NCBI GenBank assembly: GCA_947626685.1
Contig: CANQTD010000020.1
Coordinates: 1 to 34,790, forward strand
Source of the DNA: an uncultured Clostridia bacterium
GTDB taxonomy: Bacteria > Bacillota > Clostridia > Christensenellales > Borkfalkiaceae
Reading direction: 5' to 3'
Length of the DNA stretch: 34,790 nt
A program made the translations under genes and the position numbers. The notes beneath the pieces are model-generated. The model ran no database searches. It saw nothing but the letters and a program-made list of their open reading frames with translations, and was not told where the DNA came from. Positions within the stretch are counted from its first letter, which is position 1, and each line of letters begins with the position of its first letter. Positions 351 to 32,974 of the stretch are shown piece after piece.

Positions 351-556
351 GCATTTTTCGGGCATTTCCGAAATTTTTTTATAAGACGTCCGCTTTCCCT
401 CCCGTCTTGCCGCCAAAAAGCACGTTTCCGCTCCCCCTTCCGCCGTCCGAAAAGCGGCGCCAAAGGGCGGAAAGTAGCGGTCCATGAGGCGTCAGCTTTC
501 CCCCATTTTGAAAGAACAGATGCAAAACGCGGCACCCATGTCCGAGGGCGGGCGGC

Positions 557-1096
557 TTATTTCTCGTACAGCTCCCGTTTCAGGATCCCGATATAGGGCA
601 GGTTGCGGTAGCGTTCGTCGTAGTCGAGCCCGTAGCCGATCACGAACTCGTTCTCAATATCGAAACAGTTGTAGTCGGGTTCGACGTCGTACTCCCTTCT
701 CCCCTCTTTGTTGAGCAGGGTGACGATGAGGACGGAGCGCGCGCCCCTCTCGAGGAGAAGCGCCTTCAGATTGGCGAGGGTGAAGCCGCTGTCGATGATA
801 TCCTCGACGATGATGACGTCCCGCCCGGCGACGTCGCTGTCGATGTCCTTTTTGATGCGGAGCTTGCCCGAGGAGACCGTGCCCGACCCATAGGAAGAGA
901 CCGCCATGAAATCGAGCTCGACGGGGCAGGTGAGCTCGCGGATGAAGTCCACATAGAAGATGACGCTGCCCTTCAGAATGCCGATCGCGAGGGGGCGTTT
1001 GTCCTGATAGCGGGCGTCCACCTCGTGTGCGACCTCCTTGACGCGGGCGCGGATCTGTTCGGGCGTCAGCATGATGCGTTCGCAATCGTTGTGCAT
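557..1096 (-). CDS. hpt: Hypoxanthine phosphoribosyltransferase
   Basis: The 179-residue protein has normal family length. It should convert hypoxanthine or guanine plus PRPP to IMP or GMP in cytosolic purine salvage. The PRPP-binding loop VIIVEDIIDSGFT is near residues 95-107, and the family motif LDFMAVSSYGSGT is near 62-74. GGAGG lies 10 bases before the ATG. It follows tilS after 29 bases, as in the widespread Firmicute tilS-hpt(-ftsH) operon, but ftsH does not follow here; a tRNA-Gln gene and an intergenic copy of the CGGACATGG motif do. No classical terminator is visible after its stop. Confidence 0.95.
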   Translation of the reverse strand: MHNDCERIMLTPEQIRARVKEVAHEVDARYQDKRPLAIGILKGSVIFYVDFIRELTCPVELDFMAVSSYGSGTVSSGKLRIKKDIDSDVAGRDVIIVEDIIDSGFTLANLKALLLERGARSVLIVTLLNKEGRREYDVEPDYNCFDIENEFVIGYGLDYDERYRNLPYIGILKRELYEK

Positions 1097-1125
1097 GGTC
1101 GTATTTCCTCCGTAAAAGTGTTCGG

Positions 1126-2433
1126 TCAGGTAAGAAAGCCCCGCCGCACCGTATTTTCCGTAACTTTGACGCTGTCTGCGATCTCCACGCCGACGACGGC
1201 GAGAACCTCGCTCCCCTTTGCGATGACGGGAAGTTTCTTCGAGAGACGCGCGGAAATTTTTCTGTCCGTCAGGAACTTTTTGAGGGTCTTTCTCGGGGCA
1301 TGGTATGGGGTAACGACGTCCCCCTCCCTTCTCGTGCGCACGACGCAGCCCTCGGGGAAGGCGTCTAAATCGACGGCGAGAACGCGCTTGGAGCCGCTCC
1401 CTTCAAGGTCGGAAGCCGCTCCCTCCCGCACGGAGAATACGGCGGGTTTGGTATAGAGGCCCTCCTGCGGTGCGAAGGGGATCTCGGGAGCCTCTTCTTG
1501 GAAGTCCCAACAAAAGACGATATATTTCCCCTCGCGGATGGCGATCCGCTGCCACGGGACATCGGAGACGGGGAGCATGACCCGCTTCCCGCTCTGCGCC
1601 GTTCTCAGTTTGGCGATCTCCCCGAGATTGGCGCGCGTGTAGCCATACTGCGCGGTCTGCCGCATACAGGAAAGACAGGCGCGGTTGAAGAGAATATCGG
1701 GAAGATCGACGGGCACCCACTCTTCATCCAGCATGCGGACGGTGGCGTCCTCGGCAAGCTGTTGCAGAAAGTCGTCCTCTTCGGCGGCGAGAGCGGCAAA
1801 TTCCACGAGGTGTTTCGCCGCGTTCCCGTGGATCCTTTCGAACGCGGGCAGAACGGTGTGGCGGATATAGTTGCGGGTGTAATTTTCGTCGCTGTTCGTC
1901 GAATCCTCGACATGGGGTAGGTTTTTTTCGGCTGCGTACGCCTCGATCTCGGCGCGCGTGCGGGTGAGAAGGGGGCGGACGATCCCGCCGTATTCGGTGA
2001 TCGCCTTCATGCCCGAGACGCCCGTGCCGCGGGCGAGACGGAAGAGGATGGTCTCCGCGACGTCGTCCGCATGGTGGGCGGTCGCCACGAGGTCGGCCTC
2101 GCCGTTTTCGAGAATGGAATGAAACGCCCCGTGCCGCACGCTCCGGGCGACGTTTTCCATGTTGCCGCCCTGCTCTTTCACGAGTTTCGGAACGTCCACC
2201 CGCCGAACGGTGAGCGGGACGCCCCACTCTTCGCACAGACGCTTGCAGAACGCCATGTCGCGCAGAGATTCTTCCCCGCGGATGCCGTGTTCGATATGGA
2301 TGGCGGAAAGCGTGATACCCATGTCCGCGGCTCGGCTCTTGAAAGCGTGCAGAAGGCAGACCGAATCGACGCCGCCCGAGAGCGCGACGCACACCCGCTT
2401 CCCTCTGTATTTTTCCGCGTCGATCAGTTCCAT
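1126..2433 (-). CDS. tilS: tRNA(Ile)-lysidine synthase TilS
   Basis: This 435-residue ATP-dependent enzyme should convert C34 of the tRNA-Ile with CAU anticodon to lysidine, so that it reads AUA codons. The P-loop SGGVDS (residues 19-24) and HADDVAETILFRL are typical, and the length allows the C-terminal substrate-binding domains. I start at the ATG at 2433 because the -10 box ends only seven bases upstream; a longer reading from 2469 would begin inside the promoter. The mRNA would then have almost no leader. A reverse copy of the CGGACATGG motif lies inside the gene (2319-2327). Confidence 0.93.
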   Translation of the reverse strand: MELIDAEKYRGKRVCVALSGGVDSVCLLHAFKSRAADMGITLSAIHIEHGIRGEESLRDMAFCKRLCEEWGVPLTVRRVDVPKLVKEQGGNMENVARSVRHGAFHSILENGEADLVATAHHADDVAETILFRLARGTGVSGMKAITEYGGIVRPLLTRTRAEIEAYAAEKNLPHVEDSTNSDENYTRNYIRHTVLPAFERIHGNAAKHLVEFAALAAEEDDFLQQLAEDATVRMLDEEWVPVDLPDILFNRACLSCMRQTAQYGYTRANLGEIAKLRTAQSGKRVMLPVSDVPWQRIAIREGKYIVFCWDFQEEAPEIPFAPQEGLYTKPAVFSVREGAASDLEGSGSKRVLAVDLDAFPEGCVVRTRREGDVVTPYHAPRKTLKKFLTDRKISARLSKKLPVIAKGSEVLAVVGVEIADSVKVTENTVRRGFLT

Positions 2434-2440
2434 CGAATCA

Positions 2441-2469
2441 AGTATATCATGTTTCCGCGCCGAAAGCAA
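2441..2469 (-). promoter_or_regulatory. Promoter of tilS-hpt
   Basis: Minus strand TTGCTT (2464-2469), 17 bases, TATACT (2441-2446). Expected transcription start is at or one base before the tilS ATG, which implies a leaderless or nearly leaderless message. Confidence 0.7.
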
Positions 2470-2526
2470 GCAACTACAATAAAATAAAAAAGAAGGCTGG
2501 GCGGCAAAAAATTTTATTTTGTTGAT

Positions 2527-2545
2527 TGAAAATCATTGACTTTCA
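2527..2545. promoter_or_regulatory. Candidate operator, 19-bp palindrome
   Basis: TGAAAATCATTGACTTTCA is symmetrical except at three positions (TGAAA-n-TCA-n-TGA-n-TTTCA). It overlaps the -35 box of the cassette promoter. A second palindrome, CATTCAATGAATG (2544-2556), fills the spacer. The TetR regulator encoded in the same cassette is the obvious candidate; a Fur-type protein is an alternative. Confidence 0.6.
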
Positions 2546-2565
2546 TTCAATGAATGTGGTAGAAT
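2536..2565 (+). promoter_or_regulatory. Promoter of the alcohol dehydrogenase cassette
   Basis: TTGACT (2536-2541), 18 bases, TAGAAT (2560-2565), located 28 bases before the ATG. Palindromes cover the -35 box and spacer, so repression by a bound protein is likely. Confidence 0.75.
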
Positions 2566-2593
2566 GAAACAAAAATCAAAAAGGAGACTGAAA

Positions 2594-3763
2594 ATGAACG
2601 ATTTTGTTTTTCAAAACACCACCAAAGTTTATTTCGGAAGAGATCAACTGAAATCTCTCGGTGCGGAACTCAAAAAGTACGGACAAAGAGTGCTTCTCGT
2701 CTACGGCGGCGGCTCGATCAAGAAAATCGGGCTTTATGAGAAGGTGCTGAAAGAAATAGCGGGCGCGGGATTGGAATGTTTTGAGCTTGCGGGCGTAGAG
2801 CCCAATCCGCGCCATACGACCGTCAACCGCGGCGCGGAAGTTTGCAAGCGGGAAAAGATCGACGTTCTGCTCGCCGTCGGCGGCGGTTCCACCATAGACT
2901 GCACGAAGGCGATAGCCGCGGCAACATATTACGACGGCGACGCTTGGGATCTGGTAAAAGGTACGGCTTCCGTCGTAAACGCATTGCCGATCGTCACCGT
3001 TCTCACGCTTGCGGCGACAGGCTCCGAAATGGATTGCGGCGGCGTGATCTCCAATATGCAGACGCATGAAAAACTTGCCATTCTCAGCCCGCTTCTGGAG
3101 CCCAAAGCGTCTTTTTTGAACCCCGAAACCACCTATTCGGTCAGCAAATTCCAGACGGCTTGCGGCAGCGTGGATATTCTTTCGCACGTCTTTGACAGTT
3201 ACTACTTCACCATGCAGCCCAAAATGGATTTCATCGACAAGGTAATGGTAGACCTCATTAAGACCGTCGTCAAATACGCTCCTGTCGCGCTCGAAACCCC
3301 CGATAACTACGAGGCCCGTGCGAATCTCATGTGGGCTTCTTCGTGGGCATTGAACGGATTTGTCGCCGCAGGTATCGATCAGGATGTCTCCTGCCATGTT
3401 ATGGAGCATGAACTCTCGGCGTTCTATGATATTACGCACGGTCTCGGGCTGGCGATCTTGACCCCCCGATGGCTCAAATATGTGTTGGATGAAAATACCG
3501 CCCCGCAAATCAAAAAATTCGGCGTGGATGTATTCGGAACAGACCCCTCTCTTTCGGACATGGATGGCGCAAACGCCGCGATCGACGCCCTTTCCTGCTT
3601 CTTCTTCCGCACGCTCGGACTCCAGAGTACGCTCACCGAAATCGGCATTGACGACAGCAATTTTTCCATTATGGCCGAAAAGGCCTGCGCGGGCGGGACG
3701 ATACGCGGATTCAAGCCGCTTACGCCCGAGGACGTGGAAGCGATTTTCAGAATGTGCCTATAA
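2594..3763 (+). CDS. Iron-containing alcohol dehydrogenase (butanol dehydrogenase type)
   Basis: This 389-residue cytosolic NAD(P)H-dependent enzyme most likely reduces an aldehyde to an alcohol; the substrate is unknown. The nucleotide-binding GGGSTIDCTKAIA and the metal-site region with an Asp in VDILSH and His residues in CHVMEHELSAFYDITHGLGLAILTPRW place it in the BdhA/YqhD group. The start at 2594 follows AAGGAGACTGAAA; an ATG at 2564 overlaps the -10 box and is unlikely. It is the first gene of a plus-strand cassette with an ECF S component and a TetR regulator, which suggests inducible handling of a small metabolite. Confidence 0.9.
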   Translation: MNDFVFQNTTKVYFGRDQLKSLGAELKKYGQRVLLVYGGGSIKKIGLYEKVLKEIAGAGLECFELAGVEPNPRHTTVNRGAEVCKREKIDVLLAVGGGSTIDCTKAIAAATYYDGDAWDLVKGTASVVNALPIVTVLTLAATGSEMDCGGVISNMQTHEKLAILSPLLEPKASFLNPETTYSVSKFQTACGSVDILSHVFDSYYFTMQPKMDFIDKVMVDLIKTVVKYAPVALETPDNYEARANLMWASSWALNGFVAAGIDQDVSCHVMEHELSAFYDITHGLGLAILTPRWLKYVLDENTAPQIKKFGVDVFGTDPSLSDMDGANAAIDALSCFFFRTLGLQSTLTEIGIDDSNFSIMAEKACAGGTIRGFKPLTPEDVEAIFRMCL

Positions 3764-4385: not shown

Positions 4386-4391
4386 CCGGAT

Positions 4392-5183: not shown

Positions 5184-6482
5184 TCAGACGTTTCCGACGA
5201 CGCCCGAGAAGAGCGGGACGTCCTCGCTGTCCGTGAGAAGGAAGCCGAACGCCTTCGAGACGACAAAGTCCTCGTACACCGTCTCATACTCGTCGGGGCC
5301 CGCCGCGCCCGCGCCCGGAAGGACAAAAACGGCCGCGCCCTCGATGCCCCGTTTGTTGACGGTGAGCTTCGCCGCGTGGAGCGCTTCCCTGCACCAGATG
5401 TTCTCGGGGGTGAGCGGGGTGAAGTCGCAGCCCGTCTCGGCGAAGAGGGAGCGGACGCCCATTTCTTCGAGGGCCGCACGCACATTCCCGTTGAAGGAAG
5501 CGGAGAACTCGGGGAAGAGGCAGCGCGTGTAGTAGTGGATGAGGTTCACGTCGTCGTCGGCGTTGTAATCGTCCACGCCGTTGACCTCCGCGATCGTCTC
5601 GGGCGTGAAGATCTCCGCCGCGGTGTAGCCCTCTTTCGGGAGGAAAAATTTGAGCTTAAAGCCGTGCTCGGTCTGGGTGTAGAAATGGGTGAACGTCTCC
5701 CCTTCATACACCCTACCTCGGACATGGTCCCCCTCGAGGAGCTTGACCGTCTTGGTTTCGCCGCTGAGCGGCACAAATTCCACGGGCTCGGGGGAGAAAC
5801 TGAGGGCCTTGCCGAAGAGGTTCCATGTATCTTTGAGCCAAAGCGTGCTGACGAGGGCAAAGACGGTATCTGCGGGGAGTTGGAAGTTTTGGTTGATGAG
5901 CTTGTTCGTGTGCTGTTTGACGAAGTTCTGCACGGCGAGGTTGGCGTTCCCGTTGTCGTGCGCGAAATCGGCGGCGTACGAATACCCGTAGAACTTTTCC
6001 GCGACGAGATCGACGCACGCGCGGTTGAACTGCGTCCCCTCGTTCAGCCAGAGAGAGCCCGAGAGTTTTGCCTGCCCCATGCCGTCCGAGACGCGCGCCG
6101 AAACGGAGCGGTACAGATCGCCGAAATTGCTTTCCAACGCCCCATATGACGTTTTGAGCGCGGAGAGAAGTTCCTCTCTCGTCTCCCCTCCCGCGCACGC
6201 GGCCGCCATCGAGAGCGCCATGTACGCGGTGATGGGCGATACGGTGAAGTTCTCACCGCCCTCATAGCGGCTGTATGCCGCGGCGGAGAACTCGGCGGAG
6301 AACGCCCCTAACGAGGCGCGCAGCTCATCGAGGCCGTCTGCGGTGAGTTCTTCGTAAGAGAGCTTCTCGGCGGCCTTCGGAGCGGCGAGCTGCGTGGATC
6401 TGCCCGTTCCGCATGCGGAGAGGCTGGCGGCGCACAGCGACGCGGCGAGCACGAGGGACAAAACTGCGCTTGTTTTTTTCAT
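5184..6482 (-). CDS. Serpin, secreted lipoprotein protease inhibitor
   Basis: A 432-residue serine/cysteine protease inhibitor of the serpin family. A lipoprotein signal peptide ends in LSAC (Cys24), so it should be anchored outside the membrane. The fold is recognised by NFTVSPITAYMALSMAAACAGGETREELLSAL near the start and the C-terminal FVVSKAFGFLLTDSEDVPLFSGVV. The reactive-loop hinge reads NKRGIEGAAVFV, followed by a Gly/Ala/Pro-rich loop; small hinge residues suggest it can still insert. The likely role is protection of surface proteins against host or competitor proteases. It is a single gene with GGAGG before the ATG and its own terminator. Confidence 0.92.
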   Translation of the reverse strand: MKKTSAVLSLVLAASLCAASLSACGTGRSTQLAAPKAAEKLSYEELTADGLDELRASLGAFSAEFSAAAYSRYEGGENFTVSPITAYMALSMAAACAGGETREELLSALKTSYGALESNFGDLYRSVSARVSDGMGQAKLSGSLWLNEGTQFNRACVDLVAEKFYGYSYAADFAHDNGNANLAVQNFVKQHTNKLINQNFQLPADTVFALVSTLWLKDTWNLFGKALSFSPEPVEFVPLSGETKTVKLLEGDHVRGRVYEGETFTHFYTQTEHGFKLKFFLPKEGYTAAEIFTPETIAEVNGVDDYNADDDVNLIHYYTRCLFPEFSASFNGNVRAALEEMGVRSLFAETGCDFTPLTPENIWCREALHAAKLTVNKRGIEGAAVFVLPGAGAAGPDEYETVYEDFVVSKAFGFLLTDSEDVPLFSGVVGNV

Positions 6483-7189: not shown

Positions 7190-9679
7190 TTACTTCTTCT
7201 CGAAGAAGAAGCCGCTGACCGTGACGCTCGCGTCGTGATCATTCTCATCGCCGCCCATCGAGTCGACAAAGATGAGGATATTCTTGACCGCGCCCTGCTC
7301 CATCGTCTCGTCATAAGTGATGGTGAGGGTGACTTCTTCGCCCGCCGCAAGGGTGACTTTCGTGCCGCCCCACGCCGTGTCGGTGGAGAGGCCCGAGCCG
7401 CCCGTGCAGGTCGCAGACTTGTTCGTGGCGTCCGTGCCCTGAGCTTCGTTACTGCTGTCCGTGTTCACCCATGCTGTGCCCTGTACGTCCACGCGGACGG
7501 TGACGGCGGTATCCTTGTTGTTCTTGATCGTGACCGTGAAGGTGTTCTTGCCTGCCGCAAGAGCCGCGCAGTCGGCGGTCACGGGCTTATAGGTGTTGCC
7601 CTTGCCGGCGTAGCTGAGCGTCCACGATTTGTTGTCCTCCCCCGCGGACATGGTATAGCCCGAATTTGCCTCCATGTTGAACGTGAGCGCGACGGGATCG
7701 CCCGAAGGCGTGGGGGTGGGAGTGGGTTCTGCGGGCGTGTAGCTGCCCTCGCCCGAGAACGCCATCTCGGCAAGAAGCACGTCGCCGCTGTGCTTTGCGG
7801 TATCCTCGTTGATGCAGCTGTCGAAGTACATTTTGACATTCGTGGGCCCCATCGAGGTATCGTAGGTGACGGCGCAGACCGCAGTCGCGCCCGCCTCGAT
7901 CTCGAACTTGGATCCGCCCCATTCGAGGTCGGTCCAGACTTCCGTGCCGTCCTGCGTCGCGCTCAAATTGCAAGCGACGATATTGTGGTCGCCGTGCGCC
8001 GTTGCGCTCTCGATATCGACGCGGAAGGTGAGCTTCTCTGTGCCGTTGTTCGTCACTTTGACGGTGAACACATTCTTGGTGCGGGAAATCTCGGTCGCGT
8101 CCATCCAAAGGTTCTTATAGGTCGCGCCCGCAAGGTTTGCATAGACGACGCGGAGCGTATTCGCCGCTTCGTCGGAGATGACGACATAGTCCTCCGTATT
8201 GCCCGTGACAGCGAGCTTGGCACCGTTCACGGTGACGCCCTGATTGTTCGCTTCGGGAAGTTCGGGCGTTTCGCCGCCCTCGTCGCCCGTGTTGCCGAAT
8301 TTGAGCTCGGAGACGTGGAGGTTGCCCGCATGGGTCGCCGTGTCGTCCCACTTCGCGGTGTCAGGCATAAGCTGGATCCTGTCAACCGTGCCTGCGAATT
8401 TGATCACGCATTCTGCTTCCGCGCCTGCGGGGATAGTGAAGAAGGAACCGCCGTTTGCGAGGTTGGTCTCCACCGCCGCACCGTTCATCGTTGCGGAGAC
8501 GTTGACGTCTGAGCTCTTTGCATAGCCGCTTGCCGCATTCTCCGTGTCTTTTTCATTGTTGATGAGGCTGATACGGAGATACACCTCCGCCTCGCCGTTG
8601 TTCTTAATCTTGAAATGGGCGAGATCAGCATCCGCCGCGGCAGCGGGAGCGGGCATCTCGACGTTCATATAGGACGCGCCCTTCGCCGCCGTGTAGGTGA
8701 TGTCTGCAGACAATTTGTCCGCAGAGAGTGCGACGGTGAACGGATCGCTGTCCGCAAAGCCGAGTTCCTGTGCCTCGACCTTGCTCCAATCGAGCGTCTC
8801 CTCTGCGGGAGGCGTGTCGGGCTTGTCGGGATAGGGATCGCCCATCGGGGGATTCTCTTTCGCCGCGCTCGTCTTGATCCATTCGTAATCGGCGGTCTTG
8901 CCGTCGGGGCCCTTGAACTTGCCCATCCAGCCCTCGGCGTCCTTCGTGCCGCACCAATAGTTCATGAGCATTCTGCCCGCCGTCTTGGGGAACGCCTCGC
9001 CCTGCTTGACGTTCGCCTTGTCCACGCGGTAGACGGGATTTCCGTCCACGAACCATGTGATATGGCCCTCCGCCCAGCGGAAGCCGTATCTGTGGAATTC
9101 CTTGCTCGCGTCGAAGCCGAGATTGTACATGTGCTCGTGGCCGCCCACGCCGTTTGCGTAGTAGTTGAACTGCACCTTCGTGGGGCTCTGGCCGAGGAAC
9201 TCGATGTCGATCTCGTCCCACGGGTTCTCGACGCCTTCGGGGGTCTTGTCATACGGCCCCGTGCAGACGAAGAACGTGCTTGCGGTGCCGACCGTCGCGG
9301 CGGGCTTCATGCTGACTTCATAGTCGCCGAAGCCGTAGTAGTACGTCGTGCGCGCTTCGCCGGAGGTGTATTGGAACGTCGTCTCCTCTCCGTCGAGCCA
9401 GACTGTTCTTTCCTCCTCTTTCAGGCCGAGGTGCATCGCCCCGTCCGAGAAGGAGAGGTTGTCCTTCGTCCACACCGTGTTGAACACGCTGCCGTTCGAC
9501 CAGCCGTCCGAGGCGAACAGCACTTTTTCGTCGGGCTGACCCTCCGTGAAGTCCGCTACGATCTCGCCTTTGAGCGGCTCGTCGGTGAGCTTTTGGGTGG
9601 GACCGCCGCACGCCGAAACTGCCGCGGGCATGCAGAGCGCGAGCGACAGCGCGAGAGCGATCATTGATTTGCTTTTCAT
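7190..9679 (-). CDS. Lichenase-type GH16 lipoprotein with three C-terminal beta-sandwich modules
   Basis: An 829-residue secreted lipoprotein (lipobox VSAC, Cys24). Residues about 40-270 form a GH16 domain close to Bacillus lichenases: EIDIEFLG carries the catalytic Glu156 and Glu160, followed by TKVQFNYYANGVGGHE and ITWFVDG. It should cut mixed-linkage beta-1,3-1,4-glucan. Then come three modules (about 290-460, 468-635 and 655-829). The last two share a WGG-S/T-K and Asp/Asn-rich pattern and all three look like related binding domains; a PTPTPTP linker precedes the third. GGAGGAGG fixes the start at 9679. It follows another GH16 lipoprotein by 23 bases, forming a pair. A CGGACATGG copy lies inside (7645). 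Confidence 0.9.
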   Translation of the reverse strand: MKSKSMIALALSLALCMPAAVSACGGPTQKLTDEPLKGEIVADFTEGQPDEKVLFASDGWSNGSVFNTVWTKDNLSFSDGAMHLGLKEEERTVWLDGEETTFQYTSGEARTTYYYGFGDYEVSMKPAATVGTASTFFVCTGPYDKTPEGVENPWDEIDIEFLGQSPTKVQFNYYANGVGGHEHMYNLGFDASKEFHRYGFRWAEGHITWFVDGNPVYRVDKANVKQGEAFPKTAGRMLMNYWCGTKDAEGWMGKFKGPDGKTADYEWIKTSAAKENPPMGDPYPDKPDTPPAEETLDWSKVEAQELGFADSDPFTVALSADKLSADITYTAAKGASYMNVEMPAPAAAADADLAHFKIKNNGEAEVYLRISLINNEKDTENAASGYAKSSDVNVSATMNGAAVETNLANGGSFFTIPAGAEAECVIKFAGTVDRIQLMPDTAKWDDTATHAGNLHVSELKFGNTGDEGGETPELPEANNQGVTVNGAKLAVTGNTEDYVVISDEAANTLRVVYANLAGATYKNLWMDATEISRTKNVFTVKVTNNGTEKLTFRVDIESATAHGDHNIVACNLSATQDGTEVWTDLEWGGSKFEIEAGATAVCAVTYDTSMGPTNVKMYFDSCINEDTAKHSGDVLLAEMAFSGEGSYTPAEPTPTPTPSGDPVALTFNMEANSGYTMSAGEDNKSWTLSYAGKGNTYKPVTADCAALAAGKNTFTVTIKNNKDTAVTVRVDVQGTAWVNTDSSNEAQGTDATNKSATCTGGSGLSTDTAWGGTKVTLAAGEEVTLTITYDETMEQGAVKNILIFVDSMGGDENDHDASVTVSGFFFEKK

Positions 9680-10536: not shown

Positions 10537-11838
10537 TCAAGACGCCCGCTGCCGCTTCGGTTTCTCCTGCCTGCCGACGTGGGGAATGGGTTTCCACGTC
10601 AGATTCTTCGCGAAGAGGGATACGACGTCGAGAATGACGTTGAGCAGCAGGAAGAACGGCCAGAGGAGCAGGGCGGCGAGACGGCGGAAGAAGCCGACCT
10701 TCGGAATGCGCCTGCGCTCGAGGATCATGAGCAGTGCGCCCGTGAGCATGGTGACGGTGTAGGAGAACACGAACGCGCCCGCCGAGACGATGGCGTACAC
10801 GATCCACACCTTTGCGGGGTCGTAGCCGAACAGGGGCGAAAAGGCGAGGAGGATGACTTGCAGCGTCCAGAGCGCGACGCCGATCGCGCCCGAGGGCAGG
10901 ATGGAGACGGCGATGTCGTACTGCGAGAACTTATTGTCCTTCCCTCCCCTCTTCTTCGGGGTGAAGATCTCCCTGACGAGGCGCGTGAAGCGGGTGAAGA
11001 ACACGATCGTGTGTCCGCGCGCCCAGCGCAGTCTCTGCCTGAGCATGACGGGCACGGTGGTGGGCTGTTCGTCGAAAAATTCCGCCTCGTCGCAGTACAT
11101 GATCTTGTTGCCCTGCGCGATCTGGTCGGCGGTGAACTCCCAATCCTCGGTGAGGGTGACGTATTCCCAGCCGTCCTTCACATAGGCCGCGGGCATGACG
11201 TAGCCCGTGCCCGAGACGCGGGTGGAACAGCCGCAGAGCGTCCTGCCGCGCGCCTCGAAACGGCATGCGGCGAGGAAGAAGATCCCATAGAGGCAGGACA
11301 TGTAGTTGTCGCCGAAGTTGCTCGAATTGCGGTACGAAGTGACCGCGTACTTCCTGTCGTAGTAGAGGTACGCGTCGTTCATCTTCGAAAGGTAGCCGCA
11401 GGGCAGGATATTGTCTGCGTTGATGATGAAGAACCCGTCGAACGACTGCGTGCCGTAGTCCCTCTCGATGCACTTGAAGAGATAGCGGTAGGCAAAGCCG
11501 AGCACGCGCTCCTTGTCGTTGTCATAGACGTACACCGTCGCCCCGTGGGCGCGGGCGACTTCCGCCGTCCTGTCGGTGCAGTTGTGCGCCACGACGAAAA
11601 CCTGCAGCTTCTCATGGGGATAGCCGTTCTGCCAGATGCTGTCGAGCAGGGCGCCGATGACCTTTTCCTCATTGCGCGCGCTGATGATGATGCCGTAGCG
11701 GAGCTTTTCCTCCCGCTCGGGGAACCGCTTCCCCGCAAAGATCCCGATGAGCGAGAACACGCCGTAGTGGAACATGACGACGAGAAAGATGAACCACACC
11801 GCGCCGAACACGATGGATACGATTTCAAGATAACCCAT
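10537..11838 (-). CDS. Processive family 2 glycosyltransferase, membrane
   Basis: A 433-residue GT2 with one N-terminal membrane helix (about 6-35) and three or four C-terminal ones (about 310-410). The hallmarks of processive synthases are present: Asp in NADN (141-143), TED (230-232) and QRLRW (268-272). This class includes synthases of cellulose, poly-GlcNAc and bacterial mixed-linkage glucan. It is short and has no PilZ domain. It lies 44 bases after a sensor kinase gene and upstream of two lichenases. That context suggests a beta-glucan product, but the sugar cannot be read from sequence. AAGGAAGAG precedes the ATG. Confidence 0.88.
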   Translation of the reverse strand: MGYLEIVSIVFGAVWFIFLVVMFHYGVFSLIGIFAGKRFPEREEKLRYGIIISARNEEKVIGALLDSIWQNGYPHEKLQVFVVAHNCTDRTAEVARAHGATVYVYDNDKERVLGFAYRYLFKCIERDYGTQSFDGFFIINADNILPCGYLSKMNDAYLYYDRKYAVTSYRNSSNFGDNYMSCLYGIFFLAACRFEARGRTLCGCSTRVSGTGYVMPAAYVKDGWEYVTLTEDWEFTADQIAQGNKIMYCDEAEFFDEQPTTVPVMLRQRLRWARGHTIVFFTRFTRLVREIFTPKKRGGKDNKFSQYDIAVSILPSGAIGVALWTLQVILLAFSPLFGYDPAKVWIVYAIVSAGAFVFSYTVTMLTGALLMILERRRIPKVGFFRRLAALLLWPFFLLLNVILDVVSLFAKNLTWKPIPHVGRQEKPKRQRAS

Positions 11839-18880: not shown

Positions 18881-18892
18881 AACGCTCTCCCT

Positions 18893-18912
18893 CGGACATG
18901 GTATGCCCGTTT
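18893..18912. repeat. CGGACATGG-motif copy, intergenic
   Basis: Position 18894-18913 reads GGACATGGTATGCCCGTTTT, preceded by C, and is identical over 21 bases to the copy inside recO at 22875-22895. It lies between the rplL terminator and the DUF2779 start codon. Confidence 0.85.
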
Positions 18913-18962
18913 TATGCGAAGGACGGCTTTTTCAGAAAGCGTCCCGATTTTTTTCGACGCGG

Positions 18963-19395: not shown

Positions 19396-19893
19396 TTATG
19401 ATTTTTTGTCTGCGATTGCCTTCAAAACAAACGCAAGGTTCGCGATGGGCGACTGCAAGCAGCCGAGCATCTTGGCGAGCAACACCTCTCTCGAAGGGAT
19501 TGCCGCGAGTTTCTTCACGCCTTCCGCGTCCACATATGCGCCGCCGACGTACGCGCTCTTCGGGACGACTTTGTTCGCGAGCGCGGGCGTATCCTTCACT
19601 GCCTTCGCGATGATCGAGCAGCCGCTCGTCTCATCGGGGCAGAAGATGAACGCCGTCGCGCCGTTGAGGTCTGCGTCGAATTCCGTCACGCCCAGCTCGT
19701 TGAACGCCTTACGGACGAGGGTGTTTTTGTACACTTTGTATTCGCACGACGCCTTGCGGAAGCTGTTGCGCAGGTCTGTGACTTCTTTGACCGTGAGCCT
19801 GTCGTAGCTCGTGAGCACGACAGACTTGGAGGAGGAGATCTTCTCTTTGATCTCTTCGACGATGACCTTCTTTGCCTCAAAATTTGCCGACAT
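19396..19893 (-). CDS. rplJ: 50S ribosomal protein L10
   Basis: A 165-residue protein that anchors the L7/L12 stalk and binds its own mRNA leader in many bacteria. SKSVVLTSYDRLTVKEVTDLRN and YKVYKNTLVRKAF are family signatures. The start at 19893 follows AGGAGGTAACC; an upstream in-frame ATG at 19947 lies in the structured leader. It is co-transcribed with rplL. Confidence 0.98.
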   Translation of the reverse strand: MSANFEAKKVIVEEIKEKISSSKSVVLTSYDRLTVKEVTDLRNSFRKASCEYKVYKNTLVRKAFNELGVTEFDADLNGATAFIFCPDETSGCSIIAKAVKDTPALANKVVPKSAYVGGAYVDAEGVKKLAAIPSREVLLAKMLGCLQSPIANLAFVLKAIADKKS

Positions 19894-20060
19894 GGTTACC
19901 TCCTGTAAGGCCTTGCGGCCCGATTTGCACGGGCATGCGCGGGGCAAGCCCGAAAAAAAGCTCCGTACGCAGACAGTACGGAGCGGCTCTTAAACGATCG
20001 TTAAGAAAGCGAACCTCGACGGGATATTGAGCGCAAATGCGCACCCGTTGTCTGCGGTCA
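19894..20060 (-). ncRNA. L10 (rplJL) leader with transcription attenuator
   Basis: About 165 untranslated bases separate the promoter from rplJ. They contain a 9-bp hairpin GCTCCGTAC/GTACGGAGC (19960-19968 with 19976-19984), followed on the minus strand by T7: a terminator inside the leader. Upstream lie further paired stretches where the L10-L12 complex binds in the known L10 leader family. Regulation by L10 attenuation is inferred from that family and this layout. Confidence 0.8.
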
Positions 20061-22560: not shown

Positions 22561-23268
22561 TCAGAGGGAGAGAAATTCTTCGAGGGCGGAGAGCTCCGTC
22601 TCGGTGTGGTAGAGAACGTACGCCTTCATGAGGCGGAGGGCGCGCCTTACGCCGTCCTCCCCGTCCTCCGCGTCCCCTTTCAGAACGGCGCGGATCGCGT
22701 CGTACGTCACCGCGCTCACGGGAACGCCGTCCCCGCAGCCCGCGCAGCGGAAGGACCCGCTCGCCATGTCGAAACGGCGGCGTCCCTCCATCTCCCTGCC
22801 GCAGACGGTGCACCTCTCCGCCGAAACGGGATATCCCGCAAGGCGCAAGGTGCGCAAAAGAAAGCGTAAGACCGCGGACATGGTATGCCCGTTTTCCGTC
22901 TCGATGGCGGAGAGCGTCTCCACCGCGCCGACGAGGAGCTCCCCGCACGGCATGCCCTCCGCCGAGAACGCGTCGCACGTCTGGAGCACCGCCGCGCCCG
23001 CGTAATATTTTTTCAGATCGAGCCTCAGCCCGAAGAATCCCTCGTGCAGAGAGGCCTGCGTGACGGTGTATCTGCCGCCCTTTTCCGCGAACACGTACTC
23101 CGAAAAACAAAAAGGCTGCGACGCGAAATTCAGCTTCGCGCCCGCCTTCCGCACCCCTTTCATGCCCGCGCCGATCTTGCCGCGCTCCGCAGTGAGCAGG
23201 GTCACCATTCTGTCGTATTCGCCGTAATCCGCCGCCCGCAAAACGAGCGCGTCCGCCTTGTAATCCAT
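22561..23268 (-). CDS. recO: DNA repair protein RecO
   Basis: A 235-residue RecFOR-pathway mediator that loads RecA on SSB-coated DNA. The N-terminal OB fold starts DALVLRAADYGEYDRMVTLLT; a zinc site CTVCGRE...CAGC follows near 150-175. It is the last gene of the era operon. Inside it, 22875-22895 carries the best copy of the CGGACATGG motif, encoding ENGHTMS on this strand without disturbing the RecO alignment. Confidence 0.94.
   Translation of the reverse strand: MDYKADALVLRAADYGEYDRMVTLLTAERGKIGAGMKGVRKAGAKLNFASQPFCFSEYVFAEKGGRYTVTQASLHEGFFGLRLDLKKYYAGAAVLQTCDAFSAEGMPCGELLVGAVETLSAIETENGHTMSAVLRFLLRTLRLAGYPVSAERCTVCGREMEGRRRFDMASGSFRCAGCGDGVPVSAVTYDAIRAVLKGDAEDGEDGVRRALRLMKAYVLYHTETELSALEEFLSL
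22875..22895. repeat. CGGACATGG-motif copy inside recO
   Basis: C followed by GGACATGGTATGCCCGTTTT. It is identical over 21 bases to 18893-18913, and the next seven bases (CCGTCTC) are shared with the copy at 32200. Confidence 0.85.
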
Positions 23269-23407: not shown

Positions 23408-23417
23408 GCCCCCAGTA

Positions 23418-23442
23418 TGCGGACATGGGGCGGCTTTTATGC
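23418..23442. repeat. CGGACATGG-motif copy between era and yqzL
   Basis: CGGACATGG at 23420-23428 is followed by GGCGGCTTTTATGCG, which resembles the right flank of the copy at 18893 (CGTTTTATGCG). Confidence 0.6.
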
Positions 23443-23453
23443 GCGGACGGGCG

Positions 23454-24344
23454 TCACAGGTCGTCCTGACGGTAGCCGAATTCCTTCATGAGGGAACGCT
23501 TGTCGCGCCAGTCCTCTTTGACCTTGACGTACACCGTGAGAAAGACTTTCGCGCCGAGCAGTTTCTCCATGTCCTTGCGGGCGAAGGAAGCGACCTCTTT
23601 GAGCGCGCGACCCTGCTTGCCGATGAGGATCGCCTTGTGGTTCTTCTTCTCGCAGACGATGTCGAGGCCGATCTCATAGACCCCGCTCTCCCCTTTCTTG
23701 AAGGTGTTGACGACGACCGCCACGCCGTGCGGGATCTCCTTTTCGTACTTCAAGAGGATCTTCTCGCGCATGAGCTCGGCGACCATGAATTTATCGCTCT
23801 TGTCGGAGACGATATCGTCGGGGAAGAGCGGCCCGCCCTCGGGGAGCATGTCTGCGATCGCCTGTTCCAATTTTTTGAGATTCATGCCCTTTCTCGCGGA
23901 CACGGGGTACACGTCCGCGGTCACGCCCGCTTCGAAGAGCGTCTTGACGTCCGCGGGAATGTTCTCCTTCGGCATAATGTCGATCTTCGTGTAGGCGATG
24001 AGCGCGGGCACCCCGAGCGAGGTGTATTTCTTCATGAGGGCGACGTCGTCCTCTTTGAGCCCCGCGTGCCCGTCGTGCACGAACAGAATGGCGTCGACGT
24101 CGCGCGAGGCGGTCTCCGTCGTTTTCATCATGAGTTCGGTGAGCGCGTTGCGCTGTTTGTAGATGCCGGGCGTGTCCACGAACACGATCTGGAAGTTCTC
24201 CTTTGTGGAGACGCCGAGGATGCGGTCCCGCGTGGTCTGCGGCTTGGGCGAGACGATGGCGACCTTTTCGCCGACGAGGACGTTGACGAGGGTGGATTTC
24301 CCCGCATTCGCTTTTCCGATGACGGCGACCGTTCCGCTTCTCAT
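23454..24344 (-). CDS. era: GTPase Era
   Basis: A 296-residue essential GTPase for 16S rRNA maturation. G1 GKANAGKST (residues 9-17), the switch TTRDRILG, G3 DTPG, G4 TKID, and a C-terminal KH domain with KAILIGKQGRALKEV. Its ATG overlaps the ybeY stop by four bases, so translation is coupled. The usual Bacillus neighbours dgkA and cdd are absent. Confidence 0.97.
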   Translation of the reverse strand: MRSGTVAVIGKANAGKSTLVNVLVGEKVAIVSPKPQTTRDRILGVSTKENFQIVFVDTPGIYKQRNALTELMMKTTETASRDVDAILFVHDGHAGLKEDDVALMKKYTSLGVPALIAYTKIDIMPKENIPADVKTLFEAGVTADVYPVSARKGMNLKKLEQAIADMLPEGGPLFPDDIVSDKSDKFMVAELMREKILLKYEKEIPHGVAVVVNTFKKGESGVYEIGLDIVCEKKNHKAILIGKQGRALKEVASFARKDMEKLLGAKVFLTVYVKVKEDWRDKRSLMKEFGYRQDDL

Positions 24345-24841
24345 ACTCCCCTCCCGAGCCCGAGTTTTGCCATGACGTTTTCCTCCTCCCGCCTCATTGC
24401 GGCGCGCTCCTCCGCGGCCTCATGGTCGTAGCCGAGGCAGTGCAGCACGCCGTGCACCGCGAGATAGCCGATCTCGCGCGCGAGGGAATGTCCGTATTCC
24501 TCCGCCTGTTCCGCCGCGCGCTTTTCGCAGATGACGACGCTCCCGAGAAGCATCCTCCCCGACGGCGCGCCCTCTTCCCCGATGAACTCGACGCACTCGC
24601 CGTGTTCCTCCGAAGAGATCGCCTCCCCGGGCGAAAGTTCCATCGCGGGGAAGCTCAAAACGTCGGTCACGCGGTCCACCCCGCGCTCCCGCGCATTCAG
24701 GCTGCGGATCTCCTCCTCGGAGACGAACAAGAGCTCGACAACGAGGGGCATGTCCGAAACAGCCTCTCCGGAAAGTGCATTTTGCAGATTTTCGCGCGCC
24801 TCTTCGTCAAGGCTCTCGCATTCGACGATAAACTCAGCCAT
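24341..24841 (-). CDS. ybeY: Endoribonuclease YbeY
   Basis: A 166-residue zinc-dependent RNase for 16S rRNA 3' maturation and ribosome quality control. The metal motif HGVLHCLGYDHE (H-x3-H-x5-H) is intact near residues 131-142. The start at 24841 follows GAGGAAAAACCCA and overlaps the upstream gene's stop by eight bases. Confidence 0.95.
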   Translation of the reverse strand: MAEFIVECESLDEEARENLQNALSGEAVSDMPLVVELLFVSEEEIRSLNARERGVDRVTDVLSFPAMELSPGEAISSEEHGECVEFIGEEGAPSGRMLLGSVVICEKRAAEQAEEYGHSLAREIGYLAVHGVLHCLGYDHEAAEERAAMRREEENVMAKLGLGRGV

Positions 24842-27318: not shown

Positions 27319-28188
27319 CTAACCGAGATTGCACGAAGCCGTGGCGCGCGCAATGCCTTCCACGAGCCAACCACGCTCCGTTTGCTCGGTATGTATCTCG
27401 ACAGCCTCGCCGAAGTCAAGCACCGCCTGCGCGACGGCGCCCTCTTCGGAGAGCGCGTATTCCTTCGAAAATTCCCTTCTCACCGTGACCGACCCGATCA
27501 CGGCGGCGGGGAACATTTCTTCCCCGCGCACGGTATAATCCGCGATGACGACGTCGCCCGCACGGACTTCGTCCCCCACCCCGACGAGGGGGGTGCCGCG
27601 GATGACGATGAGCTCTTCCACAATGCCCTCCGCAGGAGACGTGAGGGGCATGCCCGCGATCGGGGCGACGCTTTCGGCACATTGCACCTCCACGGTGAGG
27701 ACGCCGCCCTCCCGTTTGAAGGCGCAGAATTCGACGTTCGGAAGGGAGAGCACGCGCGCGGCGCACCCGCCCGTATCCCGCGGCATCGCGGAGAAGAAGC
27801 GGACCCCCTCTTCACGGAGGATGGCGGTCACTTCCCGCTCATAGTATGCGCCGTTTCCCGTCACTTCCACCTTCAACACCCGCGTTTGGGCAAAGAGCGC
27901 GGCCGCGGAAAAGAGGAGAACGCCCGCGATGAGCCCGGAGGCCGAAAGAGCCTTCCGCGCAAGCCCTGCGGCCCCGCGGTATCTGACGTTTTCTATATTA
28001 TAGCATGAACCTTGTAAAATTGCAAAGGCTTTTTTCAAATCTTTGGCGCGGATATGCACTTCTACTGCGTTTTTTTCGGCTTCCCGCGCCCCGAGCACGG
28101 GGATCCCCGCACGCACAAGTTTCTCGGGGGCTTTCGCCGCCGTCAGACTCCGCACCGTAAAAGAGACGCCCGAAAGCGAAGATCTCAT
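27319..28188 (-). CDS. yqfD: Sporulation protein YqfD
   Basis: A 289-residue protein with one membrane helix near 80-100 and an extracellular region with LVGVGDEVRAGDVVI and the C-terminal WLVEGIARATASCNLG. It is shorter than the roughly 400 residues of Bacillus YqfD. In Bacillus yqfCD belongs to the mother-cell sigma-E regulon. It starts one base after the yqfC stop, with GGGAGGGG as site. Confidence 0.85.
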   Translation of the reverse strand: MRSSLSGVSFTVRSLTAAKAPEKLVRAGIPVLGAREAEKNAVEVHIRAKDLKKAFAILQGSCYNIENVRYRGAAGLARKALSASGLIAGVLLFSAAALFAQTRVLKVEVTGNGAYYEREVTAILREEGVRFFSAMPRDTGGCAARVLSLPNVEFCAFKREGGVLTVEVQCAESVAPIAGMPLTSPAEGIVEELIVIRGTPLVGVGDEVRAGDVVIADYTVRGEEMFPAAVIGSVTVRREFSKEYALSEEGAVAQAVLDFGEAVEIHTEQTERGWLVEGIARATASCNLG

Positions 28189-30846: not shown

Positions 30847-30913
30847 TTTCATTTCTCCTTTTATAAGATTTTTTTGGATTTTGAATTAAGGTTGCGCCTT
30901 ACGGCGCGAGATG

Positions 30914-31552
30914 TCATGCGGCAGGGGTGACGGTCGCGTCTTGGATCGCGTGGACGATCAGGTCAAACGTCACTTCCTGTCCCTGCGCGTCGTTATTGGT
31001 ATCGAGGTCCTGAAACTCTACGGTCACGGAGAAATTTGCGGAAGATTTGACTTCGACGATGCCGACGCCGTCCTCCTCGCTGCCGAGGGTGAGCCCGTCT
31101 TTGAGCGACTTGCTCACCTCTTTCACGGGCACGTCTTTGGACGCCACCGTGACGAGGAGCTGTTCCGCGAGCTCGTTGGCCGTACCTTCGAGTTTGATCT
31201 CGATCCAATAAGAAATCGCGACAGAGCCGCTATTCGTGAGGACCATGTCCGCGGTGAAGCTGCAATCGGGCGCGATCTTGACGCCTTCTTCGATGCCGAA
31301 GAGGTTCTCCTTCGTCGCGTTGGTGAAGTCCTTGTCGCCCTCGTCGGTCGTACGGGTGAGATGGCCGTTTTCGCCCAAAGAGACGGTGACGAGCTTATCC
31401 CTGACCAGCGTGACGGAAAGGTTCCCCGCGACGAGATGGTTTTCGACGCCCACCTGCGTGCTGAACAGGGCGTAAGTGCCCGTGACAAGCAGCGCGAGAC
31501 AGACGGCGATCGTCATGAACGCGAGAAGCAGCTTCTTGGATGCCTTTGTCAT
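30914..31552 (-). CDS. TasA/CalY-like SipW-dependent secreted protein
   Basis: A 212-residue protein with a signal ending GTYALFSTQVGVENHLVAGNLSVTL, the SipW-substrate pattern, and a camelysin-like beta-sandwich with FTADMVLTNSGSVAISYWIEIKLEG. It probably assembles with, or nucleates, the larger protein encoded 67 bases downstream. AGGAGG precedes the ATG. Metalloprotease activity as once proposed for camelysin cannot be claimed. A reverse CGGACATGG copy lies at 31243. Confidence 0.82.
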   Translation of the reverse strand: MTKASKKLLLAFMTIAVCLALLVTGTYALFSTQVGVENHLVAGNLSVTLVRDKLVTVSLGENGHLTRTTDEGDKDFTNATKENLFGIEEGVKIAPDCSFTADMVLTNSGSVAISYWIEIKLEGTANELAEQLLVTVASKDVPVKEVSKSLKDGLTLGSEEDGVGIVEVKSSANFSVTVEFQDLDTNNDAQGQEVTFDLIVHAIQDATVTPAA

Positions 31553-31598
31553 TGTTTACCTCCTTATTTTTATTTTCGGGTGAACCCGCGATTTGCGC

Positions 31599-31865
31599 TT
31601 AACGGCGGTTCGCGCCGTTGCCGGGCGGCGCAGTGGGCACGACCGCAACGGGCGGGGGACCCGCGACAGGCGGCACGGTCGCCACGACTGCGGCGGGGGC
31701 TGAGGGGAACACGGGCGCGGGATAGACGACCCGTACCCCGTACGGGACCGCAACGGGCGGCCGCATCCCCGGCGGTGCGAAAGGCATCCGCGGCTGAGGC
31801 GCAGGCTCGGCGGGCGCGTCTTGCATTTCCGCTTCTTCCGCTCGTTTCGCTTCCTGCGCTTTCAT
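31599..31865 (-). CDS. Small proline-rich protein, 88 residues
   Basis: The ATG overlaps the preceding gene's stop as ATGA. The first 20 residues are a charged helix (MKAQEAKRAEEAEMQDAPAE). The rest is Pro/Ala/Val-rich (PPVAVPYGVRVVYPAPVFP) with no membrane segment. The charged helix continues the one at the end of the 56-residue protein in another frame, so the two may be halves of one protein (membrane helix, coil, Pro-rich tail) joined by a frameshift, or coupled genes. No homologue recognised. Confidence 0.6.
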   Translation of the reverse strand: MKAQEAKRAEEAEMQDAPAEPAPQPRMPFAPPGMRPPVAVPYGVRVVYPAPVFPSAPAAVVATVPPVAGPPPVAVVPTAPPGNGANRR

Positions 31866-32032
31866 TGCTTCCTCGCTTTCTTCGCTTCTTCCGCTTCCTG
31901 CTCGGCCTTTTCCCGCGCTTTCCGCTCCTTCCTGTCGAGCGAGGTGACGATCAGATCGTATATCACCGCCGCAACGGTGATGAGACAGACCGCCGCCACG
32001 ACCCACAAAAAGATGATGATGGCAAGCCTCAT
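31862..32032 (-). CDS. Small membrane protein, 56 residues
   Basis: It starts MRLAIIIFLWVVAAVCLITV: one membrane helix (about 3-28), then a highly charged helix (LDRKERKAREKAEQEAEEAK) facing the cytosol. GGAGGAATAAGG precedes the ATG, which lies three bases after the sipW stop. Its TGA overlaps the next ATG. The place in the operon suggests a partner of the SipW peptidase or fibre proteins. Function unknown. Confidence 0.7.
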   Translation of the reverse strand: MRLAIIIFLWVVAAVCLITVAAVIYDLIVTSLDRKERKAREKAEQEAEEAKKARKQ

Positions 32033-32035
32033 TCC

Positions 32036-32974
32036 TTATTCCTCCTTTTGAATTTCGATCACGGGGAGTTCCCCGTCGGATCCTGTTTCCAGTGCGGACG
32101 GCCCGCTTTCGGGCTCCGCGCTCTCTTGCGGCGTACTCTCGGGCTCCGCATTTTCTGTCAAGATTTCCTGTCCTGACGGCGTTTCCTGCGCCTCTTCCTC
32201 GGACATGGTATCGCCGTTTTCCGTCTCCTGCTGTTCTGTTTTCTGCTGTTCGAGATCGGAAAGACGCTTCTTTAACAGTTCGATCTCGCTGCTCTTCTCG
32301 GCTTCCCGCGCCTCGATCTTCTTCCGCTTCTCTTCCCCCAAAACGCTCACGATCCGCACGATCTGAGCCACGATGATGATCGCCGCGGGCACGATCACCA
32401 CCAACGCCATCCCGATCGGCTGCTGCATGATCCACACCGCGTATCCGAGCACCACGCTCACATACACCACTTTGCCGAGCACATAGTCGGGGCTCGATTC
32501 GTCGTTTGTGTAAATGACCTGCTCCCCCTCCGTGTTGTCTCCGCGCAGCGTGATCTTGTATCCTTCTTCTTGCGGCTCGATGGCGATGATGCGGTGCGTG
32601 ATCGTCTCCTGCCGCCCCGCAACCACATAGCGGAAGGTCAATACGTCGCCTGTTTCCAGCTTTTCGTACCAGGCTTCGGCGGCTTCTTCCTCCTCCGGGA
32701 CTTTCTCCGTCACGATCAGGCTCTTGACGGGGATATCTTTGATGCGGAACCCGCTCGTGTCGGTGTTTTCGTTCTTTTCCATCGACCCCAAAAGGACGAT
32801 CCGCATTTCGTAGCCGAATACCTCTACCGCACCGTCCTTGCCGCGCTTTGCAAAGATCGTATATACGACCGCCGCAATACACAGCGCGATGAACAGATAC
32901 AAAAGAACGTTCCCGATCGCGCCGAATACCTTTTTTACGCTCGCTTTGCCGCCCTTTTTCTCTTTGCCGCCCAT
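32036..32974 (-). CDS. sipW: SipW-type (ER-type) signal peptidase I
   Basis: A 312-residue membrane protease. An N-terminal membrane helix (about 18-40) is followed by catalytic Ser64 in LLGSMEKN, His127 in ETITHRIIAI (His rather than Lys marks the ER/SipW class), the acidic RGDNTEG (Asp146), and a second membrane helix (about 185-208). A long Glu/Gln-rich cytosolic tail of about 100 residues is unusual. It should cleave the TasA/CalY-type precursors encoded downstream, as SipW does in Bacillus. The tail holds a motif copy at 32200-32220 encoding ENGDTMS. Confidence 0.92.
   Translation of the reverse strand: MGGKEKKGGKASVKKVFGAIGNVLLYLFIALCIAAVVYTIFAKRGKDGAVEVFGYEMRIVLLGSMEKNENTDTSGFRIKDIPVKSLIVTEKVPEEEEAAEAWYEKLETGDVLTFRYVVAGRQETITHRIIAIEPQEEGYKITLRGDNTEGEQVIYTNDESSPDYVLGKVVYVSVVLGYAVWIMQQPIGMALVVIVPAAIIIVAQIVRIVSVLGEEKRKKIEAREAEKSSEIELLKKRLSDLEQQKTEQQETENGDTMSEEEAQETPSGQEILTENAEPESTPQESAEPESGPSALETGSDGELPVIEIQKEE
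32200..32220. repeat. CGGACATGG-motif copy inside sipW
   Basis: It differs from the recO copy by two transposed bases (TATCGCC for TATGCCC) and shares the next seven bases, CCGTCTC. Confidence 0.8.

Follow-up and report, generated by a model that had tools for sequence, protein, structure and literature searches.

What is a nine-base sequence doing 11 times in 34.8 kb of a gut Clostridia chromosome, inside and between genes that appear unrelated? To our knowledge, only a few groups have dispersed recognition sequences of comparable scale (uptake sequences, HIP1, KOPS/Chi and nucleoid-protein sites), and the motif described here shares only part of the definition of each of these classes. We analysed the window, a stretch of 34,790 nucleotides, in which dinucleotide shuffles yield the nonamer 0.25 times on average and at most twice. 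The preliminary description had put the random expectation at about 0.3, in line with these shuffles, and all 11 of its positions and strands proved exact on recount. The 11-mer GGACATGGTAT was again counted four times, and the sequences bear out that the copies at 18893 and 22875 are identical over 21 bases, with two differences in the copy at 32200.

A GTTTT block said to follow several copies is real and forms part of a longer motif. Under a weight matrix trained on 95 fetched copies, all from outside the window, the flanks of 11/11 copies exceed the 95th percentile of scores at random positions in the window. The full motif, with the nonamer as its core, is bipartite, non-palindromic and ~30 bp long, about C[TG]CGGACATGGTAnnSnCSTWTKnSGTC, in which the core is followed by two weaker downstream elements about one helical turn apart. 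Searching the window with the matrix added nine weaker sites to the exact copies, giving a total of 20, where the nulls of the genome scan predict about 0.3-0.4 chance matches per 34.8 kb. The sites are as follows.

516..547, minus strand: motif copy, intergenic after hpt; exact core 536-544; matrix score 27.6; footprint 32 bp.
2299..2330, minus strand: motif copy in tilS; exact core 2319-2327; score 25.9; same codons in relative G034.
3552..3583, plus strand: motif copy in the iron alcohol dehydrogenase gene; core 3555-3563; score 21.3.
5716..5747, plus strand: motif copy antisense in the serpin gene; core 5719-5727; score 20.9.
6198..6229, minus strand: weaker matrix site in the serpin gene; score 16.6.
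7642..7673, plus strand: motif copy antisense in the GH16 gene; core 7645-7653; score 26.2.
11185..11216, minus strand: weaker matrix site in CDS 10537-11838; score 15.2.
14271..14302, minus strand: weaker matrix site in the GH3 gene; score 15.4.
14739..14770, minus strand: matrix site in the GH3 gene; score 21.3.
16307..16338, plus strand: motif copy antisense in the GH3 gene; core 16310-16318; score 28.8.
17600..17631, minus strand: weaker matrix site in the DUF2779 gene; score 15.7.
18890..18921, plus strand: motif copy, intergenic upstream of the DUF2779 gene; core 18893-18901; score 29.1.
19884..19915, plus strand: matrix site spanning the start of CDS 19396-19893; score 22.1.
22872..22903, plus strand: motif copy antisense in recO; core 22875-22883; score 34.5.
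23417..23448, plus strand: motif copy, intergenic after era; core 23420-23428; score 17.2.
23894..23925, plus strand: matrix site in the era-like GTPase gene; score 23.9.
24728..24759, minus strand: matrix site in CDS 24341-24841; score 17.8.
27628..27659, minus strand: weaker matrix site in CDS 27319-28155; score 14.2.
31223..31254, minus strand: motif copy in the camelysin-like (Peptidase_M73) gene; core 31243-31251; score 19.2.
32197..32228, plus strand: motif copy antisense in CDS 32036-32974 (no Pfam match); core 32200-32208; score 35.2, the window's best.

Our gene calls also leave the copies at 536, 18893 and 23420 outside genes, as first described. Pfam matches fit the names hpt (phosphoribosyltransferase), TilS, iron alcohol dehydrogenase, serpin, GH16, GH3, DUF2779 and RecO, as well as an Era-like GTPase with a KH domain and Peptidase_M73/camelysin; the name sipW, given to 32036-32974, is unconfirmed, this frame having no Pfam match. 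The core within recO lies in the same place in L061, whose RecO is 75% identical, and is absent from the 12 other recO loci compared (L062-L073).

The nonamer stands far above both a reversed control and a codon-shuffled background. The window's genome (G000, 1.78 Mb, 98% complete) contains 307 copies, whereas the reversed control occurs 8 times, and a matrix scan of 790 kb of it returned 211 sites against 7-9 in the null. Called genes hold 39 nonamers in sense and 50 in antisense, above all 30 synonymous-codon shuffles, which gave 13.0 and 12.5 with maxima of 21 and 19. These results reject chance and codon usage, and local paralogy is likewise rejected as the source of the copies. Among relatives, the 11-mer CGGACATGGTA is present within the genus (3-143 copies in 8 members) and absent or rare in the rest of the order (0-4 in 211 other genomes). 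The bare nonamer exceeds its reversed control 2- to 4-fold in some other families (89 vs 20 in G149, 104 vs 34 in G112); CGGACATGGTA is not raised in either genome (1 and 0 copies), and we therefore do not count their families as carriers. The motif is thus confined to one genus of uncultured gut Clostridia. Viral contigs gave 0 exact matches to a strict extended pattern, which weaker copies would escape, and we set a viral origin aside.

Within this genome the motif is independent of genes and non-polar, and shows no intergenic preference. The 211 matrix sites divide into 99 sense, 90 antisense and 22 intergenic (sense vs antisense, P 0.56). A strand bias relative to origin and terminus had been suggested as a check; gauged with local gene direction as a proxy for replication direction, no bias appeared (80 sites against 98, P 0.20). 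Only 3/9 close site pairs are in opposite orientation, which speaks against terminator hairpins.

Copies inside genes were mostly gained in place through ungapped substitution, and they come with amino-acid changes. Aligned with motif-free or nearly free relatives, 20/23 strong genic sites are ungapped (gaps in 3/23, 13%, control 7%), as are 29/36 when compared with G049/G086 (gaps in 7/36, 19%, control 6%). Identity at the sites falls below that of the rest of the gene in both comparisons (0.58 vs 0.70, P 6e-4; 0.60 vs 0.68, P 9e-4). Motif-rich relatives show partial turnover: of 26 strong sites without gaps, 12 have identities of 81% or more and the other 14 of 72% or less. At some orthologous positions the motif is retained, as in mnmG, where the same codons are occupied in 13/35 genomes.

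The copies are packed unevenly along the chromosome. Across 35 full 20-kb windows the variance/mean ratio is 4.6 (P 9e-18), and three contigs picked out after inspecting the data (C1, C2 and C8) hold 14/307 exact copies in 332 kb, a density of 4.2 per 100 kb compared with 20.2 in the rest of the genome; C3, C5 and C6 are mixed in density. In shared genes, the density of matrix sites is 46.8 per 100 kb on rich contigs and 4.8 on poor ones. Because this ~10-fold gap persists in shared genes, gene conservation does not explain the packing. Long stretches as seen on contigs therefore differ ~5-fold by exact core and 10-fold by matrix in shared genes. Neither gene number nor coding fraction correlates with motif density; the density increases with G+C (rho 0.48, P 0.004), yet C1 is G+C-rich and motif-poor. 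Copy-rich DNA makes up most of what was examined and includes the ParB contig (C16) and the dnaA contig (C29), which carry 3 and 2 copies, respectively, of the sub-pattern TCGGACATGGT. GC skew was weak on the long contigs or kept a single sign, and did not place origin or terminus; the stretches scanned held no convincing dif-like site, and only G070 C1 among them held parS-like sites (16-mer, at most 2 mismatches).

In related species, most stretches that were compared show a similar partition into rich and poor. Exact copies number 0-2 in six 20-kb stretches of G009, G034 and G059 that have C1/C2 orthologues, whereas stretches orthologous to C7 (in G009) and C20 (in G034, two genes) hold 8 and 6. 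Two G009 stretches that share one or two orthologues with C20 and C6 break the rich pattern (C10a, 1 copy; C9a, 0), and in G049 the counterpart of a poor G000 stretch is, in part, not poor. In the nearly motif-free G019, many genes with motif-rich G000/G009 orthologues line one 338-kb contig.

This pattern points to a candidate DNA-reading protein, and not to chance or a jumping repeat. The reading we lean towards, at not quite even confidence, is that the motif is the putative site of a sequence-specific DNA-binding protein and marks large parts of this genus's chromosome. A reader protein would bind the sites, and the resulting marking would most plausibly serve nucleoid organisation, segregation or division control. 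Such an arrangement would be comparable to that of Noc- or SlmA-binding sites, which cover the greater part of the chromosome and are lacking in a single region. A single protein may read the motif, regional packing may be the function itself and not a side effect, and the poor stretches may together make up one domain. In its fullest form this reading is plausible rather than probable: a dense, non-palindromic, non-polar code of several hundred sites with a putative reader, which would mark chromosome parts and alter core proteins such as MnmG. Were it a true chromosome-region code, it would be far denser than those known to us from model bacteria.

Known marker systems agree with this reading in part. 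Two papers describe Noc- and SlmA-binding sites as sequence-specific chromosomal sites (PMC4726725) and matS/MatP as macrodomain-specific DNA sites (PMC3116907). Like the former, the motif occupies much of the chromosome but becomes scarce over a large part, as judged on contigs. Against the marker reading, the motif is unlike known markers in being non-palindromic and having hundreds of sites; Noc, SlmA and MatP sites are palindromic and number in the tens. The matS sites are also confined to one domain, the Ter macrodomain, whereas here the copy-rich part is the majority, ParB and dnaA contigs included. Noc is a ParB paralogue, and G000 has no Noc-like one; 23/24 genomes encode one ParB and G072 two, leaving no useful difference in copy number for a gene association. 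Of the candidates listed in the preliminary description, a chromosome-organising site is now the better supported, because the regional pattern is strong and largely shared; DNA uptake fits the anatomy and not the gene content found in G000, a polar signal is unsupported, and chance, codon usage, paralogy and, for most genic copies, a spreading repeat have fallen away.

The main rival of the chromosome-marker reading, unlikely though a serious contender, is a DUS/USS-like uptake signal, served by a transformation route that lacks a type IV pilus or has recently been lost, leaving the motif behind. If true, Clostridia lacking a recognisable pilus would take up DNA in a sequence-specific manner. 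PMC2346458 reports hundreds to thousands of USS/DUS copies with no general orientation bias. The present motif resembles these sequences of Pasteurellaceae and Neisseriaceae in its genome-wide excess on both strands equally, its non-palindromic form, its hundreds of copies within genes, with amino-acid changes, and its restriction to one taxon. USS have a ~9-bp core with spaced weaker flanks, and here too a core precedes two weaker elements roughly one helical turn apart. Gain by substitution with partial turnover also fits. ComEC occurs in 86/91 genus genomes (51/51 good ones), and G009 encodes DprA, ComM-type and ComEC proteins; being near-universal, ComEC is uninformative for gene association.

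The pilus side of the machinery argues against uptake. Profile searches of G000 found neither the pilus/T2SS membrane protein PF00482, despite 98% completeness, nor a PF00437 match above cut-off. PF00482 is present in 25/91 genomes but in only 2/12 of those with at least 200 copies, and genomes that have it carry fewer copies (median 20 vs 61.5; P 7e-5, uncorrected for kinship or completeness). ComEA was not recognised with TIGR00426 in 91 genomes or PF12836 in 27: TIGR00426 and strong PF12836 matches fall mostly in ~700-aa frames, presumably Tex-like, and most of the weak second matches to PF12836 lie in frames of 400-500 aa, so we did not count them as ComEA. The 10-fold desert in shared genes is likewise unexpected of uptake-driven spread, which would cover the whole core genome, and inverted pairs are not in excess.

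It is improbable that a mutational or repair/methylation drive, and not selection for binding, raised the motif as in HIP1. PMC4390886 describes HIP1 as very abundant in most, not all, genomes of its cyanobacterial group, a likeness in abundance and lineage variability, and as an 8-bp palindrome linked to methyltransferases. Here the core is not palindromic, the motif extends in two parts over ~30 bp, and G000 contains long motif-poor stretches. A polar recombination or translocation signal of the Chi or KOPS kind is more doubtful still. Such signals are likewise short and dispersed, and the present motif lies both within and between genes; KOPS and Chi are polar relative to replication, whereas our motif lacks strand bias relative to local gene direction or host gene, which leaves this reading unsupported, and its bipartite extension resembles neither. 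A small mobile repeat (MITE/REP-like) inserting copies is barely credible: some copies are intergenic, many share a ~30-bp consensus and gaps at strong sites somewhat exceed the control, but ungapped alignment to homologues without the motif rejects insertion for most genic copies, lowered local identity is what replacement in place would leave, and opposite-facing pairs and intergenic sites are few.

Motif-rich and motif-poor species lie side by side in this large uncultured genus, so its tree can serve to trace gain and loss, and association to look for the reader protein. G012, which has 11 copies yet groups with rich species in a DnaA tree, is a candidate natural loss. Comparing k-mers in ~91-100 kb each of G012, G019, G070 and G005 revealed no replacement motif, or dialect, of equal prominence. 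Other repeats dominated the k-mer searches of these four genomes.

The preliminary description had placed 11 copies of the nonamer CGGACATGG in the window, and all 11 lie at the positions it gave, compared with 0.25 in shuffled sequence. The excess it suspected extends across the window's own genome, G000 (GCA_947626685.1; 1,782,516 bases in 52 contigs, of which the window is C20), where 307 copies (171 + 136) stand against 8 for the reversed pattern. Within the 790 kb fetched from this genome (about 44%), CGGACATGG occurs 106 times and CGGACATGGTAT 29 times, where third-order Markov estimates give 5.9 and about 0.05. When words with 25 or more occurrences in this sequence are ranked by ratio, motif strings head the lists. 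The motif signal is real and strong.

Column conservation reaches well past the nonamer core, on either flank.

Conserved motif columns
-1: C
0: T or G
1-9: CGGACATGG
10: T/G
11: weak A
14: C/G
16: C
17: C/G
18-20: T/A-rich block
21: G/T
23: C/G
24: G
25-26: TC

A weight matrix of 32 columns, built in 5 iterations, recovered 211 sites in the 790 kb of G000, whereas simulated sequence gave 7 (matched) to 9 (training), and was used unchanged on other genomes. For the window itself, we trained a matrix on the 95 copies outside it, which avoids circularity; the flanks of all 11 window copies scored higher than 95% of random window positions (P = 9.5e-9). The 211 sites show INDEPENDENCE of genes and strand, with 99 sense, 90 antisense and 22 intergenic; the fetched DNA is ~14% intergenic. 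Taking the direction of most local genes as reference, 80 sites agree and 98 disagree (P = 0.20).

Matrix sites in other genomes (sites, sequence searched, null)
G009: 118, 393 kb, 4
G059: 37, 100 kb, 1
G034: 26, 100 kb, 2
G049: 26, 180 kb, 0
G086: 14, 100 kb, 0
G005: 5, 100 kb, 0
G012: 4, 100 kb, 2
G070: 1, 100 kb, 0
G019: 7, 409 kb, 0

Across 91 genomes of the genus, counts of exact copies, uncorrected for completeness, were at least 100 in 20, at least 50 in 44 and at most 20 in 25. The 11-mer CGGACATGGTA occurs 143, 127, 112, 67, 55, 27, 6 and 3 times in eight sampled genus members, whereas the remaining 211 of 219 order genomes have 0-4, among them seven genomes of two sister genera with 0-2. 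In some families outside the genus, the bare nonamer is modestly more frequent than its reversed pattern (for example, 89 versus 20 in G149), with no rise in the 11-mer. A DnaA tree covering 39 genomes places most of the richest species in one group of 16 with weak basal support (87/27). Motif-poor G012 is nested inside it, within a group of 11 whose support is better (98/96), and an intermediate group of seven is placed elsewhere. A RecO query gave 13 named relatives, which are MAGs from uncultured Clostridia or Firmicutes; several carry the label 'Lapin'.

The best and clearest example of how copies arise is mnmG, which adjoins dnaA. At 4 of 39 loci the site was not seen; of the 35 genomes left, 13 carry ACC CAT GTC CGC GA in a single position, which codes for T-H-V-R-(E/D), and 22 have different residues with spacing unchanged. 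All 13 carriers belong to the rich group of 16, whose other three members either miss the copy (G012 and G030) or were outside coverage (G059). The G049 lineage has 126 exact copies and no mnmG site, and part of its stretch orthologous to motif-poor contig C2 is not poor; its motif set is possibly an independent build-up.

We systematically aligned G000 sites scoring at least 18 with their counterparts. For the four relatives with no or almost no motif (G005, G012, G019 and G070), 23 sites align with a gap in 3 (control gap rate 7%), and ungapped-site identity is 0.58 versus 0.70 for the genes that hold them (P = 6e-4). With G049 and G086, 36 align with a gap in 7 (control 6%), at identities of 0.60 versus 0.68 (P = 9e-4). 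In the comparison with rich relatives (G009, G034 and G059), 28 align with a gap in 2 (control 4%), and mean site identity (0.72; range 0.44 to 1.00) equals the control (0.73), with values of at least 0.81 in 12 of 26 sites, 0.72 in three and at most 0.69 in 11. G009 keeps 9 of 30 aligned sites at the same position (score at least 14.05). Most genic copies were thus substituted in place, some being kept and others turning over.

Copies are packed regionally, with 0 to 14 sites per 20 kb over 35 windows (variance/mean 4.6, P = 9e-18). Contigs C1, C2 and C8 (332 kb) hold only 14 of the 307 exact copies; they were grouped after looking, so the P value (4e-13) is descriptive only. In shared genes, site density is 46.8 per 100 kb for rich contigs (68 sites over 145 kb) and 4.8 for poor ones (6 over 125 kb); genes with no counterpart found among the fetched relatives give 40.5 versus 7.2. 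Spacing is Poisson-like in C4, C20 and C7 (CV 0.99) and uneven in C5 (CV 2.36). Six stretches orthologous to C1 or C2 are poor, with 0 and 1 copies per 20 kb in G009, 0 and 1 in G034, and 0 and 2 in G059, while stretches orthologous to C7 (8 in G009), C20 (two genes; 6 in G034) and C4 (three orthologues; 6 in G059) are richer. These comparisons lend regional packing cross-species support. Contrary to this pattern, G009 stretches with one C20 orthologue or two C6 orthologues have 1 and 0 copies, and two observations are at odds with a strict domain: part of a stretch poor in G000 carries copies in G049, and the picture is mixed for C3, C5 and C6. Copies are present on both the ParB contig (C16) and the dnaA contig (C29). 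In G070, parS-like sites lie at ~4.7 kb of C1 (L056), near ParB/ParA and about 170 kb from dnaA (C1:175 kb), so there dnaA may sit apart from the ParB/parS region.

We tentatively favour the motif as a candidate protein-binding marker of chromosome regions. A pilus-independent uptake signal ranks lower and appears rather unlikely. ComEC (86 of 91 genus genomes; 51 of 51 good ones) is kept genus-wide although most genomes lack the pilus/T2SS membrane protein PF00482 (found in 25 of 91, G000 not among them) and no ComEA was recognised (searched with TIGR00426 in 91 genomes and with PF12836 in 27). G009 encodes DprA, a ComM-type protein and ComEC, and of the 12 genomes holding 200 copies or more, two (G025 and G059) have PF00482. 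The pilus motor search (PF00437) gave full-strength matches in 8 of 26 genomes, G000 not among them, and marginal ones, at the cut-off, in two more. None of the literature matches listed, from a search whose scope excluded bioRxiv and most subscription journals, described an uptake-type motif or anything similar for Clostridia. The region-marker and uptake readings alike require a reader protein, and this analysis found none.

Two further features lie towards the window's ends.

228-302, minus strand: tRNA-Gln (anticodon ctg)
33746-34372: serine resolvase-type N-terminal domain, at the contig end

The top-ranking near matches between the first 25 kb of the window and a plasmid collection are due to this tRNA. 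The fetched G000 contigs (C1-C8 and C20) hold a second, separate repeat family, which looks palindromic and includes strings such as GGGGGAGCTGTC (36 copies) and CCCCTCGAGGGG (30). Another family surrounds AGCGTCATTCTGAG and CCCTGTAAGG at five G059 loci (L041-L045), and G012 has GACGTCATTTCGA-like repeats.
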